64,000 nucleotides of DNA from Alteraurantiacibacter aquimixticola (GCF_004965515.1 NZ_SSHH01000001.1:1057280-1121279), one strand, 5' to 3'. Shown: positions 2,726 through 64,000, numbered from the stretch's first letter. The notes: generated from the sequence alone by a model not told the origin. A program made the numbers and translations.

Positions 2726-3331
2726 TCAGCCGCCTATCGCGCCCAGTGTCGCCTTATAGGCATCGCGGCCTTGCAGCCTCGACTGGTAGGCGCGGAAGGA
2801 GGGGCGGTCGGTCAGGGTGCCGAAATTGAGCCCCCAGTCGACCTGGCTGCCGACATAGACATCGGCCATGGTGAAGCGGTCCCCGCACACGAAATCATGG
2901 GCTGTCAGCCACTTGTCGAGCGTATCGACCACGCGGTCGTAATTGCCGAAGCCGACAGTCATCTCCTGCTTCTCATCCTTCGGTTCCCACCCCATGGCCT
3001 TGTTGGTCACGGCGGTTTCCACGGGACCGGCGGCGAAGAACAGCCAGCGGAAATAGTCGGCCTTTTCCTCTTCGCGCGGGAGCAGGTCGGGCGCTTCCAT
3101 CTCACCCAGATAGTGGCAGATCGCGGCGCATTCGGTCACCACCCGCTCACCCGATGCGGTGTGATGGATGATCGTGGGTACCTTGCCCATCGGGTTCACC
3201 TCCAGCAGCGCGGCGGGCTTGTCCTCCCATGTCACCAGGGAGAGTTCCGGCTCCACGCCGACTTCGGCAAAGGCCCATTGCGCGATCAGCGCGCGGCTCA
3301 TCGGATTGAAGAAAAGGGTATAGTCGGCCAT
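2726..3331 (-). CDS. Glutathione S-transferase family protein
   Basis: This 201-residue protein starts MADYTLFFNPMSRALIAQWA, a thioredoxin-fold beta-alpha start with Ser at the catalytic position. It continues with NPMGKVPTIIHH (cis-Pro glutathione site) and TECAAICHYLGE (the Glu/Ser-binding turn), then an alpha-helical domain. The start at 3331 is supported by AGGAG about 8 nt upstream; a longer in-frame start exists but lacks a ribosome site. Such proteins conjugate glutathione or reduce substrates. The product of the next gene upstream is another GST, so this is part of a GST cluster. Confidence 0.92.
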   Translation of the reverse strand: MADYTLFFNPMSRALIAQWAFAEVGVEPELSLVTWEDKPAALLEVNPMGKVPTIIHHTASGERVVTECAAICHYLGEMEAPDLLPREEEKADYFRWLFFAAGPVETAVTNKAMGWEPKDEKQEMTVGFGNYDRVVDTLDKWLTAHDFVCGDRFTMADVYVGSQVDWGLNFGTLTDRPSFRAYQSRLQGRDAYKATLGAIGG

Positions 3332-3382: not shown

Positions 3383-4057
3383 TCAAACGTGGCCGTGCGG
3401 TGGCTCTCCGGTCAAATCGTCGAGCTGGGCCTGCAGGGCGCGGGCGAAGGCGGGGCGGGCCAGCGCGCGGGCGCGATAGGCGAGGAGGTTGGAGCAATCA
3501 TTGATCAGCTGCCCGCCGAAGCTGCGCAGGACAAAGGCCATCATGATATCGGCGACGCTGAACTGGCCCGCCAGCCATTCCTTGTCGCCCAGCGCTGCGG
3601 AAAGCTGTTCCAGCCGCCGCTCCGCCTGCTGCATCATCGAGGCGACTGCCGGGGCGCACCAGTCCTTGTCACCATTGAACAGCGGCATCAGCGTGATCGG
3701 GCGCAGCACCGGTTCCACCGAGCTGAGCGTAGCGAAAAGCCAGCTCATCGCCTGCATCTTCACGGCAGGGTCGGTGGGCAGGAGGCGCGCGTCCTTCTCG
3801 CCCAGATAGTGGAGGATCGCGCCGCTTTCGAACATCTCGCCCGTCGCGTCGCGCAGGGCGGGGACCTGGTCGAAGGGTTGCCAGTGCAGGTAATCCGCCG
3901 GACGCGGCGCCCCGGCATGGATCAGGTGGACGCGATAGGGAATCTCCGCCTCTTCCAGCGCCCAGCGCGCCACCAGGTCGCGCACCTGACCGCGTGCGAA
4001 ATCGGGCACCCATTCAAAGGCGCTGATGGTGATTGCTGCGTCGTCTGCCTGTGCCAT
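3383..4057 (-). CDS. Glutathione S-transferase family protein
   Basis: The 224-residue protein shows the GST pattern: an N-terminal segment ending WALEEAEIPYRVHLI, then PFDQVPALRD (cis-Pro loop), ESGAILHYLGEKD (glutathione gamma-Glu binding turn) and a helical domain with QFSVADIMMAFVL, which contains the conserved N-capping Asp. It resembles Ure2p/YghU-like or Theta-like family members. Substrate unknown. It sits 51 nt upstream of another GST gene on the same strand and 91 nt downstream of a third, so the three may be transcribed together. Confidence 0.92.
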   Translation of the reverse strand: MAQADDAAITISAFEWVPDFARGQVRDLVARWALEEAEIPYRVHLIHAGAPRPADYLHWQPFDQVPALRDATGEMFESGAILHYLGEKDARLLPTDPAVKMQAMSWLFATLSSVEPVLRPITLMPLFNGDKDWCAPAVASMMQQAERRLEQLSAALGDKEWLAGQFSVADIMMAFVLRSFGGQLINDCSNLLAYRARALARPAFARALQAQLDDLTGEPPHGHV

Positions 4058-13240: not shown

Positions 13241-13254
13241 GCCGCGATTTTCCC

Positions 13255-13351
13255 GTCATTGCGAGCGAAGCGCGGCAATCCAGGGCGAGGCGCACAACGG
13301 CCCTGGATTGCCGCCTCGCCCCGAAACAAGTTCGGGCCTCCTCGCAATGAC
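13255..13351. repeat. Palindromic intergenic repeat (REP/MITE-like), copy 1
   Basis: The outer ends are a perfect 11-bp inverted repeat, GTCATTGCGAG (13255-13265) and CTCGCAATGAC (13341-13351). Inside it is a second perfect inverted repeat, CGGCAATCCAGGG (13273-13285) and CCCTGGATTGCCG (13301-13313). It fills the space between fmt and truA. A related copy lies at 40881-40966. Such nested palindromes are typical of non-autonomous elements dispersed in sphingomonad genomes. No transposase is adjacent. Confidence 0.8.
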
Positions 13352-40880: not shown

Positions 40881-40966
40881 GTCATTTCGAGGAGCCGCAA
40901 GGCGGCGCGGCAATCCAGGGTGGTTGTGCGCGACGCCGTGGATTGCTTCGTTTCGCTCGCAATGAC
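40881..40966. repeat. Palindromic intergenic repeat (REP/MITE-like), copy 2
   Basis: The ends GTCATTTCGAG (40881-40891) and CTCGCAATGAC (40956-40966) match those of the element at 13255-13351 (one difference), and the inside shares GGCAATCCAGGG. It sits between the two desulfurase genes, so it may break or attenuate their common transcript. Confidence 0.78.
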
Positions 40967-40980
40967 GCTATAGGGCAAAC

Positions 40981-56208: not shown

Positions 56209-57375
<1,167 letters not shown>

Positions 57376-57383
57376 TCCGATCC

Positions 57384-57455
57384 GTCACCCCAGCGAAAGC
57401 TGGGGTCTCCATCCTGTCGCGTGACGTGGGAGATTCCAGCTTTCGCTGGAATGAC
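57384..57455. repeat. Palindromic intergenic repeat, second type
   Basis: GTCACCCCAGCGAAAGCTGG (57384-57403) and CCAGCTTTCGCTGG followed by AATGAC (57436-57455) form an inverted repeat between ccrM and folP. The arms also contain the self-complementary CCAGCGAAAGCTGG-type palindromes. Copies of this design are widespread in GC-rich alphaproteobacteria; only one is seen here. Confidence 0.75.
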
Positions 57456-57476
57456 GAAGGAAGCTAAAGGCAGGTC

Positions 57477-58601
57477 ATGACCCAATCGATCTATATCCAG
57501 CCCATCTCCACCGTCACCGGACCGCAGGCGGTGGAGGGCGATGCGGTGCGCCTCGGCGGCTCCATGGCCTATGCGCGCGAATTCGCGGTGATCACGCGCG
57601 AGGGCGGCAAGGTGGTGGACCGGCAGCTGGCCACCTCGCGCAGTATCGCCGATCTGCTGGGCGGCCTGCCTGACGATCTCGCGGCGGAAGGCGAGGCGCA
57701 GTGGTCGAACCTCTCCACGGTGCACGAACCGCTGCAATGCGGGGAGCGGGTGATCCGCCTCGACGCGCCGCAGATCATGGGCATCCTCAATGTCACGCCC
57801 GACAGCTTCTCCGATGGCGGGAAGTTCATGGACGATCCGCTCGCCATGCAGGATCAGGCGGCCGACATGCACGAAGCGGGCGCGGCGATCATCGATATCG
57901 GCGGCGAAAGCACGCGGCCCGGCGCTGCGGCGGTGTGGGAAGGCGACGAGATCAAGCGCGTCATCCCCGCGATCGAATATTGCAAGGGCATGGGCGCGGC
58001 GGTCAGCGTAGATACGCGCAGGCCCGCGGTGATGCAGGCGGCGCTCGATGCAGGCGCGGCGATCATCAATGACGTATCAGCCCTGCGCCACGATCCGCGC
58101 AGCCTGGAATTCGCAGCCTCCAGCGGCAAGCCGGTGATCCTGATGCACGCGCCGGGGCCGAGCAATGAGGCGGCCGAGGACCTCCATTCCAACGCCGACT
58201 ATACCGCCGTGGCCTTCGACGTGTTCGACTGGCTGAAGGAGCGGCGCGATGCAGCCTTGGCGGCCGGGATCGCGCGGCACAATATCGTGCTCGATCCCGG
58301 TGTCGGTTTCGGCAAGTCGGTGGCCGACAATCTCAACCTCTTGAACGCGCTGCCGCTGTTCCACGCACTCGGACAGCCCCTGCTGCTGGGCGCAAGCCGC
58401 AAGCGCATGATCGGCGCGCTCTCGAACGAGGCGGGATCGAACAAGCGGCTCGGCGGCTCCATCGTCCTGGCGCAGCTGGGCATGGATGCGGGCTATCACC
58501 TGCTGCGCGTGCACGATGTTTTCGAGACGGTGCAGGCGCGCAATGTCTGGCGCGGCCTGCGCGATGCCGGGGTGACCGATTTCACGGGGCTACCCGGGTG
58601 A
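57477..58601 (+). CDS. folP: Dihydropteroate synthase
   Basis: The 374-residue protein carries an N-terminal extension (about 1-90) not present in E. coli and then the TIM-barrel signatures MGILNVTPDSFSDGGKF, DIGGESTRPGA, ISVDTRRP-type VSVDTRRPAVMQ, INDVSALRHD and LLLGASRKRMIG. It condenses p-aminobenzoate with dihydropterin pyrophosphate for folate. The stop overlaps the GTG of the next gene (58598-58601). Its last 22 codons have a diverged copy about 1 kb downstream (59480-59595). Confidence 0.95.
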   Translation: MTQSIYIQPISTVTGPQAVEGDAVRLGGSMAYAREFAVITREGGKVVDRQLATSRSIADLLGGLPDDLAAEGEAQWSNLSTVHEPLQCGERVIRLDAPQIMGILNVTPDSFSDGGKFMDDPLAMQDQAADMHEAGAAIIDIGGESTRPGAAAVWEGDEIKRVIPAIEYCKGMGAAVSVDTRRPAVMQAALDAGAAIINDVSALRHDPRSLEFAASSGKPVILMHAPGPSNEAAEDLHSNADYTAVAFDVFDWLKERRDAALAAGIARHNIVLDPGVGFGKSVADNLNLLNALPLFHALGQPLLLGASRKRMIGALSNEAGSNKRLGGSIVLAQLGMDAGYHLLRVHDVFETVQARNVWRGLRDAGVTDFTGLPG

Positions 58602-59431
58602 TCGCCAAGCTGGTCATCTCAGCGTTCTTGATCGTCCCCATACTGGCCCTTGTAACACCGCGCATCCTCTATCCATGGCTGGTCGCCAGTTTTGCGCCAC
58701 TGCTTGCCGGACTCCTCTGGCTTTCGAACCGGCCCGTTTCCTTCCAGCAGGATTGGGCGGCTTTCGGTAACATGATACTCTTTGCCGGGGTCATCGCCTG
58801 CCTGCTGGCCTTCCTGTTTCGCTATATTGCTTCTGCACTTGCCGCGAAGTTCCTCATCAAGGCGGCCCCTTCGCCAATCGACTGGCGTCCATTCAAGGTT
58901 AGTCTGTTGCTCACGCTGGGGTTGGCCTTTCTGTGGTGGTGTATGCCGCTGGTTGCAGGAGTTGTCGGACCCCATGTGGTCCTCCTTGCCGGGGCAATCG
59001 TCGCCATCGCGCTCGTCGTTCTCGCGCGGCGCATGGCGGCTGTCCACCACCGCATTGCCGCATTTTCAGCCAGCGCGATCGTTTCTGGATTGCTGCTCTT
59101 CAGCCTGACCCAGCCTGGCATTGTTGTCCGCGAGGCCAACCGCGCCGCTCAGGGGCAGCCATATTGCCTGCTGGTTGCAGATGGTGACCGCGGACATCGG
59201 CCGGCGCGCTCGCTGGCCGACCTGACGCCTGTCATCATGAGGGCACCAGCGAGGGGACAGATCGCCCTTTCCAATCACGCGCAGATCCGGGTGGACGAGG
59301 CACCGGCCATGCATTGGTCCTATTTCGGGAGGGGCTTCGTGAATGGAGCGGATCTCTATCGCGGTGTGGATTGCGAGCGGCAGCGCGAATGGGCCTCGCG
59401 CCTTGGCTGGTTCGGCCGCGACCAAGGCTAG
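58598..59431 (+). CDS. Membrane protein of unknown function (cargo segment 1)
   Basis: The 277-residue protein starts MIAKLVISAFLIVPILALVT (GTG start overlapping the folP stop) and has about 6 hydrophobic segments in residues 1-180. A soluble C-terminal part follows, with PYCLLVADGDRGHRPARSLA and MHWSYFGRGFVNGADLYRGV. No family recognised. It is clearly richer in A/T and rare codons than folP or ccrM. It lies between the intact folP end and decayed gene ends (59428-59595), so it looks like acquired cargo. Confidence 0.7.
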   Translation: MIAKLVISAFLIVPILALVTPRILYPWLVASFAPLLAGLLWLSNRPVSFQQDWAAFGNMILFAGVIACLLAFLFRYIASALAAKFLIKAAPSPIDWRPFKVSLLLTLGLAFLWWCMPLVAGVVGPHVVLLAGAIVAIALVVLARRMAAVHHRIAAFSASAIVSGLLLFSLTQPGIVVREANRAAQGQPYCLLVADGDRGHRPARSLADLTPVIMRAPARGQIALSNHAQIRVDEAPAMHWSYFGRGFVNGADLYRGVDCERQREWASRLGWFGRDQG

Positions 59432-59479
59432 GCGGCGTGGTCGATCCCGAGCGCTCTGCTTTCGGTAGAGCGTCGAGCG
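59428..59479 (-). pseudogene. Decayed 3-prime end of an NtrC-like gene
   Basis: On the minus strand this reads R-S-T-L-Y-R-K, then a 2-nt shift, then G-I-D-H-A-A and a TAG. It aligns to the C-terminus RSTLYRKLSDLGIDNAA of the intact regulator at 61347-62771. gtcgatcccgag and agcgtcgagcg are exact matches, and other differences are mostly third-position. The 5-prime part is missing. Confidence 0.75.
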
Positions 59480-59595
59480 CCTGTTGTTGTGCCTACACGA
59501 CACCTATGAGGCGGCACAGAATACCGGCGCGCAATGTCTGGCGCGGCCTGCGCGATGCTGGGGTGACGGACTTTAACGGGCTTCTTGCGCTGTAG
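59480..59595 (+). pseudogene. Decayed 3-prime end of a second folP
   Basis: This stretch encodes L-L-x-x-H-D-x-x-E-x-x-Q, a 7-nt insertion that shifts frame, then ARNVWRGLRDAGVTDFNGLLAL and a TAG. It aligns to the end of the intact folP, with 33 identical nucleotides at 58535-58567 versus 59526-59558 and mostly synonymous changes after that. The upstream part is missing and abuts the NtrC-like remnant. Confidence 0.8.
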
Positions 59596-60003
59596 CGGTC
59601 CGATCCGGCGGAGTGCGATAAAATCGCACTCTGCAAATCACGCGTTGCAAATCGCAACAAATCGCTTTGCATTTTGCATGTTCTGGCTCCGGTGATGGTC
59701 GGCTTCAACGGAATTCTGCGGTTGCCGGAAAACGGCACGATCCTTGAATTGCTTGTGGCAGACCCTGTTGGAGGACTGCCATGCGTTTCATCGACCTCAT
59801 CCCAAAAGCCGGCGACCGCGCAGCTGCCGCTTCGTTTGCCGACCGCGCCAGGCCGTCGGCATGCGGCAAGGTGCGAGCGGATCGCCGCAAGGGTTGCAGG
59901 TCTGCCAGCAAAGTCCCGGCCTGATCGCTGGGACCGCGCGCCGCGTGCCAATTCGAATGTCATTGGAAGCCATTGTTTGGGGCATGGGGACCAAGGAGCG
60001 GGA
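59596..60003. other. Intergenic region with hairpin and AAATCGC repeats
   Basis: This roughly 410-bp stretch precedes the winged-helix gene. GAGTGCGAT-AAA-ATCGCACTC (59611-59631) is a perfect 9-bp hairpin. AAATCGC or AAATCAC occurs at 59621, 59635, 59649 and 59659 (gaps 14, 14, 10), with TTGC-AAATC-GCAA at 59645-59657. From 59680 to 60003 I see no gene, although several frames are open. Confidence 0.55.
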
Positions 60004-60531
60004 ATGAAAATGAACGACAAGTTTGCCGGTACTCCAAACATCCAGGCAAAAGCCTTCGGCGCCCTCGGATCGCAAAACCTCTCGGGCGAGCTCAACAGCA
60101 TCAAACGCCAGCTTGCCGCCATGGCGGACAAGGTCGACCAGGTTCTCGAGAAAGCGGAGGAAAACAGGATCGAACCGACCGTCTCCAATGACGTGGCCGA
60201 GTTCCTGGATGTCGCGCTGCGGGCGGAATTGGTCCGGCGCTCGTTGATGGACGGTGTCGGCCGCTCCACCGATCCATCATGGAGCGTCCTGCTGGTGTTG
60301 ATCCAGGCCTATCTCAAGGGAGAGCCATTGACCCTGAGAGACTTGCCGATGAGCGCCGACGATGGCCACTTCTGGCTCAAGACTCTGAAGCTTCGCGGGC
60401 TGGCCAGGGAGATACATCACTCGCGCGGAATTCCCGCGACCACCTATACCGTCACCGAAGAGGCATACAGGCTCTTCCTCGCTTCCTTCGTCCGCGACAA
60501 TTTCGACGGACGCCTGTCAGCCAGGGTCTGA
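60004..60531 (+). CDS. Winged-helix DNA-binding-like protein (cargo segment 2)
   Basis: The 175-residue protein starts MKMNDKFAGTPNIQAKAFGA and has a coiled-coil-like stretch (GELNSIKRQLAAMADKVDQV). A C-terminal MarR-like winged helix follows: VLLVLIQAYLKGEPLTLRDL, SADDGHFWLKTLKLRGLARE and a wing TTYTVTEEAYRLFLASF. AAGGAGCGGGA lies before the ATG. It may be a transcriptional regulator; the AAATCGC repeats upstream are candidate targets. No operon partner on the same strand. Confidence 0.72.
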   Translation: MKMNDKFAGTPNIQAKAFGALGSQNLSGELNSIKRQLAAMADKVDQVLEKAEENRIEPTVSNDVAEFLDVALRAELVRRSLMDGVGRSTDPSWSVLLVLIQAYLKGEPLTLRDLPMSADDGHFWLKTLKLRGLAREIHHSRGIPATTYTVTEEAYRLFLASFVRDNFDGRLSARV

Positions 60532-60551
60532 TAACTCCCGGCAATTCCTGC

Positions 60552-61307
60552 CTAGAGCGAGAAGCCGCCGTCGCTGGCGAGCACGGCGCCGGTGATATTG
60601 CCTGCCGCATCGGACAGCAGGAAGCCGATGGACTGCGCGATTTCCTCCGCGCTGGCGAAGCGGCCACTGGGTGTGGCGCTGGCCATGGCGGCAAGGGCCT
60701 GTTCGCGCCCCATATCCTCCACCATCTTCGTGAAGTCGGGATTGTCGTCCCAGATCGCCGTATCGACGCCGCCCGGCGCGATGACGTTGACGCGGATGCC
60801 GTCAGGAGCACCTTCCAGCGCCGCGATCTTGGCAAGGTGGATCAGCCCCGCTTTCGAAGCGGAATAGGCCGATGCGCCCGCCATCGGCTTCACCCCGGAG
60901 ACCGAGCCGAGCATTACCACGCTGCCACCCGATCCCATCGTTCGCATGGCCACTTGCAGCGAGAGGAAGGCGCCGTCGAGATTGACCGCCATGATCCGGC
61001 GCCAGTGATCGAAGCTCGCATCGCGGATCGTCGCGCCATCGGCGATACCGGCGTTGATCACCGCATGGTCGATCTTGCCCAGATCGCCCTCCAGCTTTTG
61101 CCAGAAGGCGGGGTCCGACACATCGCCGGCATGGCGTTCGATTTCGCAGGACAGGGGGAGTGCGGAAAGGCCTTCCGCGTCGCGATCGACCAGCACGAGC
61201 CTGCCGATACCTTGCTTGTCAAGCCAGCGCGCGCAGGCGGCGCCAATGCCCGAGGCAGCGCCAGTGACGAGGGCGGTCTTGCCCGTGAAGGAAGTCTCGA
61301 TAGCCAT
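60552..61307 (-). CDS. Short-chain dehydrogenase/reductase
   Basis: The 251-residue protein has the classical SDR pattern: TALVTGAASGIGAACARWLD (cofactor loop), VINAGIADGA, the active Ser in MLGSVSG, the catalytic pair YSASK and PGGVDTAIWDD. It is an NAD(P)-dependent oxidoreductase; DRDAEGL after strand 2 (Asp) points to NAD. Substrate unknown. It lies between the winged-helix gene and the NtrC-like gene, 39 nt after the latter on the same strand. Confidence 0.9.
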   Translation of the reverse strand: MAIETSFTGKTALVTGAASGIGAACARWLDKQGIGRLVLVDRDAEGLSALPLSCEIERHAGDVSDPAFWQKLEGDLGKIDHAVINAGIADGATIRDASFDHWRRIMAVNLDGAFLSLQVAMRTMGSGGSVVMLGSVSGVKPMAGASAYSASKAGLIHLAKIAALEGAPDGIRVNVIAPGGVDTAIWDDNPDFTKMVEDMGREQALAAMASATPSGRFASAEEIAQSIGFLLSDAAGNITGAVLASDGGFSL

Positions 61308-61346
61308 GCCGCGGTCGCTATAAGCTGCGGCCAGCGCTGTCGAGCC

Positions 61347-62771
61347 TTACGCCGCGTTGTCGATCCCGAGGTCCGACAGCTTGCGATACAGCGTCGAGCG
61401 GCCAATGCCGAGGCGGCGGGCGACTTCGGTCATGCGGCCACGATAATGGCCGATGGCGAGGCGGATCACGTCGGCCTCGATCTCTTCCAGCGGGCGCAGA
61501 TTGCCATCGGGCGTGTAGAGCATCACGCCTGCGCTTTCGCGGATCGGGCCGTTGGTGGTCGTCGGCTCGCTCTCGCCCACGATTTCGCGCAGCTGCGGGA
61601 AGTCCTCGGCTGTCAGCGCGTCGCCTTCGCAGAACACGGCGGCACGGAACAGCACTGCCTGCAGCTGGCGGACATTGCCGGGCCAATCGAAAGCACCCAG
61701 CAGTTTCAGCGCATCGGAAGTGATTCCCAGCGGGCGCAGGCCCGGCTGCTGGCCGATCTGGTGGAGGAAATAGCGGGTCAGCGCGCCGACATCGCGGTTG
61801 CGCTCACGCAAGGGGGGCAGGGTGATGCTGGTGCGCGAAAGCAGCTCCAGCAGTTCCCCGTTGAAGTGGCCGGTGGCGACGAGATCGGCCAGCGGAAGGT
61901 TGCTGGCGGAGATTATCCGCACGTCCACCTTGAAGCTGTGCTTGGCGCCGATCGGGCGGACCGAGCCATTCTTCAGCGCTTCGGCCAGGCGGTCCTGCAG
62001 GTCGGTTGAAAGCCGGTCGATCTCGTCCAGCACCAGCGTGCCGCCGTCGCAATTCTGCAGTGCGCCCACCTGCCGGTCGAACGCGCCGGCAAAAGCGCCC
62101 TTCTCATGCCCGAACAGCACCGATTCGAGGCTGGAGGTGGGGACGCCGCCGATATGGATCATGCGGAAGGGCGCCTTGGCGCGCGGCGATGCGCCATGCA
62201 TCGCGCGCACCAGCATTTCCTTGCCCGTGCCGCTCTCGCCCTCGATGAGCACATTACCATGACCGCGCGCGGCCTTGGCCGCCTTGGCCAGCGCATCGCG
62301 GAAGGGTGGGGCGGTGCCGACCATCGCATCGAAGTCCAGCTTCGCATGCATCTTCTCGGTCAGCGGCATCAGCTCGTCGGTCGGCGCTTCGCGGGTGGTC
62401 GCATTGCGCAGCGCCTGCATCAGCCGTTCGGGAGCGACGGGTTTCACGAGGTAGTCGGTCGCGCCCGCGCGCATTGCCTCCACCGCCAAGAGCGGCGAGG
62501 TGCTCGCGGTCAGCATCAGGATAGGCAGGGCGGGGCGGCGTTCCTTCAGCTCCGCGATCAGTTCGCAGGCCTGGTCACCCGGTACCCATTGGTCGAGGAT
62601 GATCGCGGACAATTGCATGCCCTGCCGCGTGCCAAGCGTGGCGATGGCCTTCTCTGCCTCGTCGATCACGAGCGTGCGCCAGCCCTCGCGTGCTGCGAGT
62701 GCGCTGATCAGCCGGCTTTGCGCCGGCTCGTCGTCGATCAGCATCAACAGGCGCTGTTCGGCTTCGGCCAT
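61347..62771 (-). CDS. NtrC-like AAA+ response regulator with GAFAGA loop
   Basis: The 474-residue protein has a receiver domain (Asp13-14, phospho-acceptor Asp60 in IILDQWVPG, Lys110), an AAA+ domain with Walker A GESGTGKE (178-185) and Walker B TLVLDE, and a Fis-type helix-turn-helix at the C-terminus (YRGRMTEVARRLGIGRSTLY). The sigma-54-contact loop is GAFAGA (225-230) where GAFTGA is expected. The Thr is usually needed to engage sigma-54. It may act differently. AAGGGAACGA precedes the ATG at 62771. A decayed copy of its end lies at 59428-59479. Confidence 0.9.
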   Translation of the reverse strand: MAEAEQRLLMLIDDEPAQSRLISALAAREGWRTLVIDEAEKAIATLGTRQGMQLSAIILDQWVPGDQACELIAELKERRPALPILMLTASTSPLLAVEAMRAGATDYLVKPVAPERLMQALRNATTREAPTDELMPLTEKMHAKLDFDAMVGTAPPFRDALAKAAKAARGHGNVLIEGESGTGKEMLVRAMHGASPRAKAPFRMIHIGGVPTSSLESVLFGHEKGAFAGAFDRQVGALQNCDGGTLVLDEIDRLSTDLQDRLAEALKNGSVRPIGAKHSFKVDVRIISASNLPLADLVATGHFNGELLELLSRTSITLPPLRERNRDVGALTRYFLHQIGQQPGLRPLGITSDALKLLGAFDWPGNVRQLQAVLFRAAVFCEGDALTAEDFPQLREIVGESEPTTTNGPIRESAGVMLYTPDGNLRPLEEIEADVIRLAIGHYRGRMTEVARRLGIGRSTLYRKLSDLGIDNAA

Positions 62772-62940
62772 TCGTTCCCTTCCGACCCAAGGGTGCTGTA
62801 AGATCCGGTTTTCCGGTGTGAACGGACGGCATATCAAGCGTGGGTAAAGAGGCTGTTAAGCGAACACTTGAGTGGTTTGCCCACTGCCGATAGAGCATGC
62901 GAAACACTCAATGGTTTCAGGCAAAGGACCTTAGGCGAAA

Positions 62941-63063
62941 ATGGCCAATTCCCAAGATATTAAGTCGAACGAGAAGACCTATGGCGGGTTCATTTCCATG
63001 CTGAAATGGGCGATTCCGCTGATCGCGGTGCTGGTTCTGATCGTTCTCGTGCTCATTTCCTGA
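62941..63063 (+). CDS. aa3-type cytochrome c oxidase subunit IV-like small protein
   Basis: The 40-residue protein reads MANSQDIKSNEKTYGGFISM and then one membrane helix AIPLIAVLVLIVLVLIS. The T-Y-x-G-F-I-x-x-L-K-W signature matches the bacterial COX4_pro_2 family, a small subunit of aa3 cytochrome oxidase. It is too short for most gene finders. It sits 10 nt in front of pntA, as in other sphingomonads. GGCGAAA is the only ribosome-like sequence. Confidence 0.8.
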   Translation: MANSQDIKSNEKTYGGFISMLKWAIPLIAVLVLIVLVLIS

Positions 63064-63073
63064 GCCGCGCGGT

Positions 63074-64000
63074 ATGGGGGATCTGCGCATTGCCGTTCTG
63101 AAGGAACGGGCCGCGGGGGAGACGCGCGTGGCTGCAACGCCCGAAACGGTGAAGAAATTCATCGGCTTGGGCGCCAGCTTCGCGGTCGAGGAAGGCGCGG
63201 GCGAGACCTCCGCCATTACAGACGAGGATTACCGCGCCGCCGGTGCGGATGTGCTGCCCATGGCGCAGGCCGTGGCGGGCGCCGATATCGTGCTGGGCGT
63301 GCAGGCGCCCGACGTCATGACGCTGACGGGTGCAAAGCCCGGTGCGATGGTGGCCGCGACTTTCGATCCCTTCCGCGACAAGGACCGCGTGGACCTCTAC
63401 GCCAAGGCCGGGTTCGAGGCGCTGGCGATGGAATTCATGCCGCGCATTACCCGCGCGCAAAGCATGGACGTGCTCTCCAGCCAGTCCAACCTCTCCGGCT
63501 ACAAGGCGGTGCTGGCCGCCGCCAACCAGTATGGCCGTGCCTTCCCGATGATGATGACTGCGGCGGGCACCGTGTCTGCCGCCAAGTGTTTCGTCATGGG
63601 CGTGGGCGTGGCGGGCCTGCAGGCGATCGCCACCGCCAAGCGCCTGGGCGCGCAGGTTTCGGCAACCGATGTGCGCTCCGCCACCAGGGAACAGATCATG
63701 TCGCTGGGCGCCAAGCCCGTCTTCGTCGAAAGCGTCGAGGGGATCGAGGGCGAGGGCAGCGGCGGCTATGCCACGGAAATGTCGGAGGAATACCAGAAGG
63801 CGCAGGCCGAGCTGGTGTCTAGCCACATCGCCAAGCAGGACATCGTCATCACCACCGCGCTGATCCCCGGCCGCGCCGCGCCGCGCCTGATCAGCGACGC
63901 GCAGATCGCCACCATGCGCAAGGGCAGCGTCATCTTCGACCTCGCCGTGGCGCAAGGCGGCAATGTCGAAGGCAGCGTGGCTGACGAAGTGGTGGAGCGC
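63074..64000 (+). CDS. pntA: NAD(P) transhydrogenase alpha subunit (5-prime part, runs off the window)
   Basis: The 309 visible residues start MGDLRIAVLKERAAGETRVA and show the alanine dehydrogenase/PntA domains: FIGLGASFAVEEGAGETSAI, ALAMEFMPRITRAQSMDVLS, AAGTVSAAKCFVMGVGVAGL (NAD loop) and ITTALIPGRAAPRLISDAQI. Re/Si-specific transhydrogenase couples proton entry to NADPH formation at the inner membrane. The 3-prime part, and pntB, lie beyond the window. Confidence 0.95.
   Translation, partial: MGDLRIAVLKERAAGETRVAATPETVKKFIGLGASFAVEEGAGETSAITDEDYRAAGADVLPMAQAVAGADIVLGVQAPDVMTLTGAKPGAMVAATFDPFRDKDRVDLYAKAGFEALAMEFMPRITRAQSMDVLSSQSNLSGYKAVLAAANQYGRAFPMMMTAAGTVSAAKCFVMGVGVAGLQAIATAKRLGAQVSATDVRSATREQIMSLGAKPVFVESVEGIEGEGSGGYATEMSEEYQKAQAELVSSHIAKQDIVITTALIPGRAAPRLISDAQIATMRKGSVIFDLAVAQGGNVEGSVADEVVER

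Follow-up and report, generated by a model that had tools for sequence, protein, structure and literature searches.

The interval between folP and an NtrC-like regulator gene (hereafter ntrC) of Alteraurantiacibacter aquimixticola appears to consist of two alleles of one variable locus, stacked by homology-facilitated illegitimate recombination (HFIR) in such a way that the resident cargo was kept. We estimate the probability of this reading at roughly 0.7. The two alleles would stand head to tail, as folP-membrane gene-ntrC' and folP'-helix protein-SDR-ntrC, where ntrC' and folP' are broken 3' ends of the two flanking core genes. The reading starts from the anatomy of the interval, its turnover of genes across the order Sphingomonadales, recurring scars with variable breakpoints in other genomes, and relatives that have the locus before and after an addition; from these we infer by which recombination route the addition took place, where the DNA came from and which of the halves arrived later. 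The window in the following is the whole stretch of 64,000 nt that was analysed, and positions refer to it unless a locus is named.

Anatomy of the interval and its two scars

The left border of the interval is an intact folP, encoding dihydropteroate synthase (57477..58601, plus strand; PF00809, E 1e-67). It is the only intact copy in the genome, since a search of the whole genome with the FolP protein gave one full match and, beyond that, the remnant described below (residues 352-372, E 4e-5). To its left is a DNA adenine methylase gene with the Pfam domains N6_N4_Mtase and RAMA (56230..57375, plus strand), which is the usual left neighbour in the loci of relatives. Between these two genes, at 57383-57456, an inverted repeat of 28 nt (CCAGCGAAAGCTGGGG type) with 86% pairing resembles a REP-type palindrome; its core has no other perfect match in the window. 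The right border is an intact gene for an NtrC-like sigma-54 response regulator (61347..62837, minus strand), which matches PF00158, PF00072 and PF02954 and scores under the cut-off of the TIGR01818 model. The right neighbour (63074..64000, plus strand) runs off the window; from its sequence we take it to be pntA-like, encoding the NAD(P) transhydrogenase alpha subunit, and it is next to ntrC in relatives as well.

The first cargo gene (58598..59431, plus strand) encodes an orphan membrane protein with about six transmembrane segments. The gene begins with a GTG that overlaps the folP stop (GTGA), and at its other end the stop codon runs into that of ntrC', so that the left half forms a complete and tightly packed folP-cargo-ntrC' unit. 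The scar ntrC' (59428..59479, minus strand) comprises the final ~54 nt, now decayed, of an ntrC-like gene with its stop codon, and the scar folP' (59480..59595, plus strand) the final ~116 nt of a folP, likewise decayed and with its stop. A spacer of 408 nt separates folP' from the second cargo segment. It contains a hairpin (59608..59634, plus strand; fold z -2.5) with a 12-bp stem, GCGGAGTGCGAT/ATCGCACTCTGC, which lies 12 nt 3' of the folP' stop and has no T-run; an Rfam search of 57000-63500 returned no match. The second segment consists of a gene for a small, helix-rich, DNA-binding-like protein (60004..60531, plus strand) and one for an SDR oxidoreductase (60552..61307, minus strand; PF13561, E 2e-49), which across the order often occupies this interval.

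Pfam and NCBIfam gave no match for the membrane protein, and a clear homologue turned up only once among 401 genomes of the order, in G468, at 31% identity. That homologue (L295:5389-6261) is a single gene that also occupies a gap between convergent core genes, whose ends we take, from their sequence, to be rsmA-like and malate-synthase-G-like. The helix-rich protein likewise has no Pfam match, and its homologues, 34-37% identical, are found in the same interval of loci L009 and L034. The sequence-only reading had called it a winged-helix protein. This label is plausible but was not confirmed, as the fold search gave no significant match and the top matches, which include MarR-type regulators, have E values of at least 0.4 with a low-confidence model. 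Single-sequence structure predictions of both cargo proteins are of low confidence (pLDDT 58 and 52).

The core of folP' (59526-59582) matches 58535-58591 of intact folP at 89% identity over 57 nt, ungapped, and with gaps allowed 55 nt match at 93% (E 8e-15), the best self-match in the entire 64-kb window. The scar ntrC' aligns with positions -54 to -1 of intact ntrC. Elsewhere in the window, the second strongest self-match is a 67-nt inverted repeat pair, 85% identical (13254-13320 / 40901-40967), and there is a direct repeat of 53 nt, 81% identical (3082-3134 / 3778-3830). Nucleotide profiles of the last 150 nt of folP and ntrC, built from 191 loci, detected folP' at E 3e-12 and ntrC' at E 8e-8. 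The same profiles gave no E under 0.48 on reversed intervals, and profiles from other parts of the two genes reached only 9e-4 at best. These controls rule out chance similarity, on which the sequence-only reading had said its proposal could fail. An assembly artefact is ruled out as well, since the divergence of the remnants amounts to 11-21% and the window is located deep inside a 1.39-Mb contig.

Both remnants are truncated at their 5' side and meet back to back at 59479/59480, and both are frameshifted (ntrC' by a net -2 nt, folP' by insertions in its 5' part). Self-alignment and profiles thus agree with the description in the sequence-only reading, which had ntrC' joined directly to folP' and each cut exactly where they meet. 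The junction reads ...GAGCG|CCTG. Intact ntrC goes on with GCC and intact folP is preceded by TCA at the corresponding points, so the parents share at most about 1 nt at the joint. A junction with this little homology is what HFIR leaves.

Back-to-back 5'-truncated ends would also be expected at the junction of a simple tandem duplication, in which one ancestral block, from the folP 3' end to the ntrC 3' end, was doubled and then lost genes reciprocally, with no foreign DNA involved. We consider this very unlikely for the window, whose two halves have no cargo in common: self-comparison revealed no remnant of the winged-helix (wHTH) or SDR gene left of the seam and none of the membrane gene right of it. 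The sequence of ntrC' also speaks against it, with 46/51 positions identical to the ntrC of several other species and 41/52 to the intact ntrC of its own genome. On the other side, the nearest relative of folP' is the intact folP of the same genome, and both have a Gly-Val (GGGGTG) that occurs in 1 of 179 readable orthologues. Being private to the folP of this genome, the Gly-Val suggests that folP' came from the same lineage or a very close one, and it is a point in favour of simple duplication.

These results bear on the origin of the remnants, which had been described as orthologues from a relative because many of their differences from the intact copies were third-codon changes. The latter part was borne out, as third codon positions account for 11 of 14 ungapped differences (p = 0.0007 against 1/3, p = 0.03 against 1/2). 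This excess is greater than neutral decay alone would give, and somewhat greater than decay plus evolution of the intact copy would give. The former part agrees with ntrC', which is nearer to other species, but not with folP'. The hints within the window as to donor and resident therefore conflict, with ntrC' appearing non-resident and folP' native, and the synonymous sites in the window are too few and contradictory to name the two. A nine-member subclade has the SDR (L033, L037) and the helix protein (L009, L034) and in no member the membrane gene, which weakly points to the membrane-gene half as the likelier newcomer. No close relative among the available genomes has either half alone (the nearest folP is 80% identical), so the event in the window comes without a before state.

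Turnover and scars at the same address in relatives

The gene order methylase-folP-interval-ntrC-pntA is kept in most loci examined across the order. In 191 distinct Sphingomonadales loci the interval ranged from -4 bp, where the stop codons overlap, to 5159 bp; it was at most 60 bp in 25 loci and at least 1 kb in 93. Its ORFs make up about 73 families, of which 30 recur, a rough number that comes from selected, mechanically called ORFs of at least 120 aa. The SDR is the commonest family (89 ORFs in 88 of the loci), and a PhoD-like protein is next, followed by others. Conserved flanks with high turnover between them make the interval a cargo hotspot, as the sequence-only reading had supposed. 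Pfam detected no integrase, recombinase or transposase in the interval of the window. The cargo ORFs of relatives were clustered and the representatives read, part of them also being run against Pfam, and there was no integrase or recombinase among the representatives read. The interval thus seems to be a hotspot without a mobile element between two convergent core genes.

Relatives had been expected to carry one or the other half alone. Named loci place the window in the genus Aurantiacibacter, in which we found empty, SDR-only and helix-protein-only alleles; a sister clade has an allele with a single lipoprotein-like gene. An allele with the membrane gene only was found in 0 of the 191 loci.

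Including the window, there are seven independent cases of scars, with L240 and L238 counted as one event. Locus L144 (Sphingomonas-like B12) has a second ntrC'|folP' seam, arranged as in the window and beside different cargo. An outer-membrane-type gene is followed by ntrC' (E 4e-13), an adjoining folP', a gene for a secreted-type protein, and ntrC. The folP' of this locus is weak in sequence (26/32 nt), and RGMRDEALTPG* is still legible in it. In L183, new cargo is followed by an SDR 3' end back to back with folP', and then by the whole allele of its relative L255. In L231, L221, L240 with L238, and L266, an ntrC 3' end separates the older cargo from the newer. Comparing 154 intervals with themselves, in an unbiased way, gave 20 direct-repeat matches, of which about half are gene-end scars.

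Several further matches were set aside. Weak folP-like matches in L190, L201, L269 and L088, which lie inside a PhoD-like gene, and another in L255 are due to chance, and repeats in L143 and L041 were left out of the count as partly palindromic. L188 and L088 each have an extra ntrC tail of 21-28 nt beside the real one, just before the ntrC stop; these are possibly the shortest scars and were not counted, being too short. Within L266, the ntrC leftover at 796-830 of the interval seems to have lost an internal piece between two GATGCCGAG repeats that ntrC contains.

The breakpoints in ntrC lie at about -46, -52, -54, -77 and beyond -110, and some breaks are inside the SDR instead, which means that there is no fixed site. 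With their different breakpoints, the remnants of relatives look independent of those in the window; the same remnants beside unrelated cargo, which were to count against the earlier proposal, were not found. The breakpoints also bear on the possibility that a site-specific enzyme inserted small islands at gene 3' ends, with the displaced end as a copy of the att site. Displaced gene 3' ends are a typical hallmark of integrase sites. However, the broken genes differ (folP, ntrC and even SDR), the breakpoint varies by case, and there was no integrase or recombinase in the interval of the window or among the cargo families read. Site-specific integration is almost certainly not how these scars arose.

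Relatives without an insertion make some of the events readable. L221 is co-linear with L278 through folP, the SDR, the spacer and the first 46 nt into ntrC; past this block it has a gene that is absent from L278, and then ntrC again from the stop codon. Additions of the same type separate L240 from L241, L238 from L251 and L266 from L271. In L221, L240 and L266, the alignment of ntrC with the relative starts exactly at the stop codon, as HFIR would have it; for the window, which has no uninserted relative, a homologous side is presumed. Judging from these comparisons, cargo appears to have been added in one step, leaving variable 5'-truncated ends (ntrC', SDR', folP'). The left blocks match the uninserted relative and have no trace of the new gene (L221/L278, L240/L241, L266/L271), which argues against tandem duplication with reciprocal loss in those pairs.

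The new gene in L240 and in L221 has a 4-nt overlap with the ntrC stop and therefore looks coupled to ntrC. The arrangement of the membrane gene on the folP stop in the window is alike. In L049 the sole resident of the interval is a gene homologous to the newcomer of L266 (34% identity), so newcomers can be single alleles at the same address in another genus.

Proposed route of the addition

The incoming fragment would have carried cargo and one flanking core gene, and this gene would have paired with its resident copy to give the homologous end. On its other side the fragment would have ended within the 3' portion of the opposite core gene, and this end would have been joined to the resident chromosome without homology. 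Such an exchange would gain cargo, keep the resident cargo and leave 3' ends of both core genes, each cut at its 5' side, abutting back to back, and the leftovers would then drift as pseudogenes. One seamless homologous side, a joint without homology and varied breakpoints fit HFIR and argue against a site-specific enzyme.

The same final structure could be reached by first duplicating and then pruning, i.e. through a tandem merodiploid of folP-cargo-ntrC with two alleles and one deletion running from within the first ntrC into the second folP, and merodiploid tandem duplications made by transformation have been described (PMC3784515). This was in essence the model of the sequence-only reading, in which two alleles were joined in tandem and the redundant gene bodies deleted. 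Its first part stands, as the halves look like head-to-tail alleles; a full copy and a deletion are unneeded given the one-step additions in relatives. Duplication and pruning would require two events and an unstable intermediate every time. In addition, the scars of relatives end in SDR, ntrC or cargo at varied points, and the one-sided additions of ntrC' and then a new gene (L221, L240, L266) require no duplicated folP. We therefore regard this route as unlikely, and HFIR as the preferred reading.

As to the vehicle, ComEC and DprA are present in the genome; both are widespread, hence no proof. A gene transfer agent was rejected, as GTA_TIM is absent from 40 genomes of the genus with a positive Caulobacter control. 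The genome encodes Ku at G000:C1:900711-901250 (E 2e-47), in a match that runs across one TAA. The distribution of Ku among relatives is patchy (22 of 47 genomes), and the protein is not associated with scars, occurring in 5 of 8 scarred genomes and 17 of 39 others (p 0.45), so that end joining by Ku is not a requirement.

Precedents and significance

Oliveira et al. 2017 (PMC5635113) described hotspots of horizontal transfer that lack mobile elements and owe their turnover to recombination in the core genes on either side. As here, cargo turns over between two conserved core genes, and exogenous DNA with core-gene homology is enough; there, however, double homologous recombination swaps cargo without a scar, whereas in the present case cargo is gained and the core genes leave 3' ends behind. 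The stacked T6SS effector-immunity modules of Vibrio cholerae, with their displaced 3' ends, have been ascribed to HFIR (PMC5361080, 2017). Successive one-sided additions are anchored in a conserved stretch there too, and older genes and displaced 3' ends stay downstream. The anchor in V. cholerae is the conserved upstream part of the module, whereas here either of two convergent housekeeping genes can be the one that broke and the cargo genes are unrelated. HFIR has been obtained in the laboratory in E. coli conjugation, having earlier been described in three competent species (PMC3240628); it likewise has one homologous and one illegitimate end, which here are read from fossils only. Small variable genome segments, attributed largely to illegitimate recombination with a homology-assisted form proposed as one route (PMC2884548), are similarly short allelic segments, but they vary within species and are mostly under about 100 bp (median), whereas the variation here is order-wide with gene-sized cargo.

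The process therefore has precedents. What is unusual here is that both flanks leave ends, that the scars recur across the order at one address, and that uninserted relatives are available. The entry of gene-sized cargo into hotspots without mobile elements has so far mostly been deduced from statistics; at this locus, individual additions are legible to the base and can be set against relatives that lack them. With seven independent cases at a single address, one-sided joining that adds cargo seems to occur in nature as well as in laboratory transformation, and 5'-truncated 3' ends of flanking genes within an interval provide a search rule for such events elsewhere. Tentatively, and with the odds somewhat against so general a statement, illegitimate additive capture at convergent core-gene ends may be a routine way of single-gene gain in Sphingomonadales, in which broken 3' ends would record the order of insertion and newcomers would often arrive already coupled to a housekeeping stop codon.
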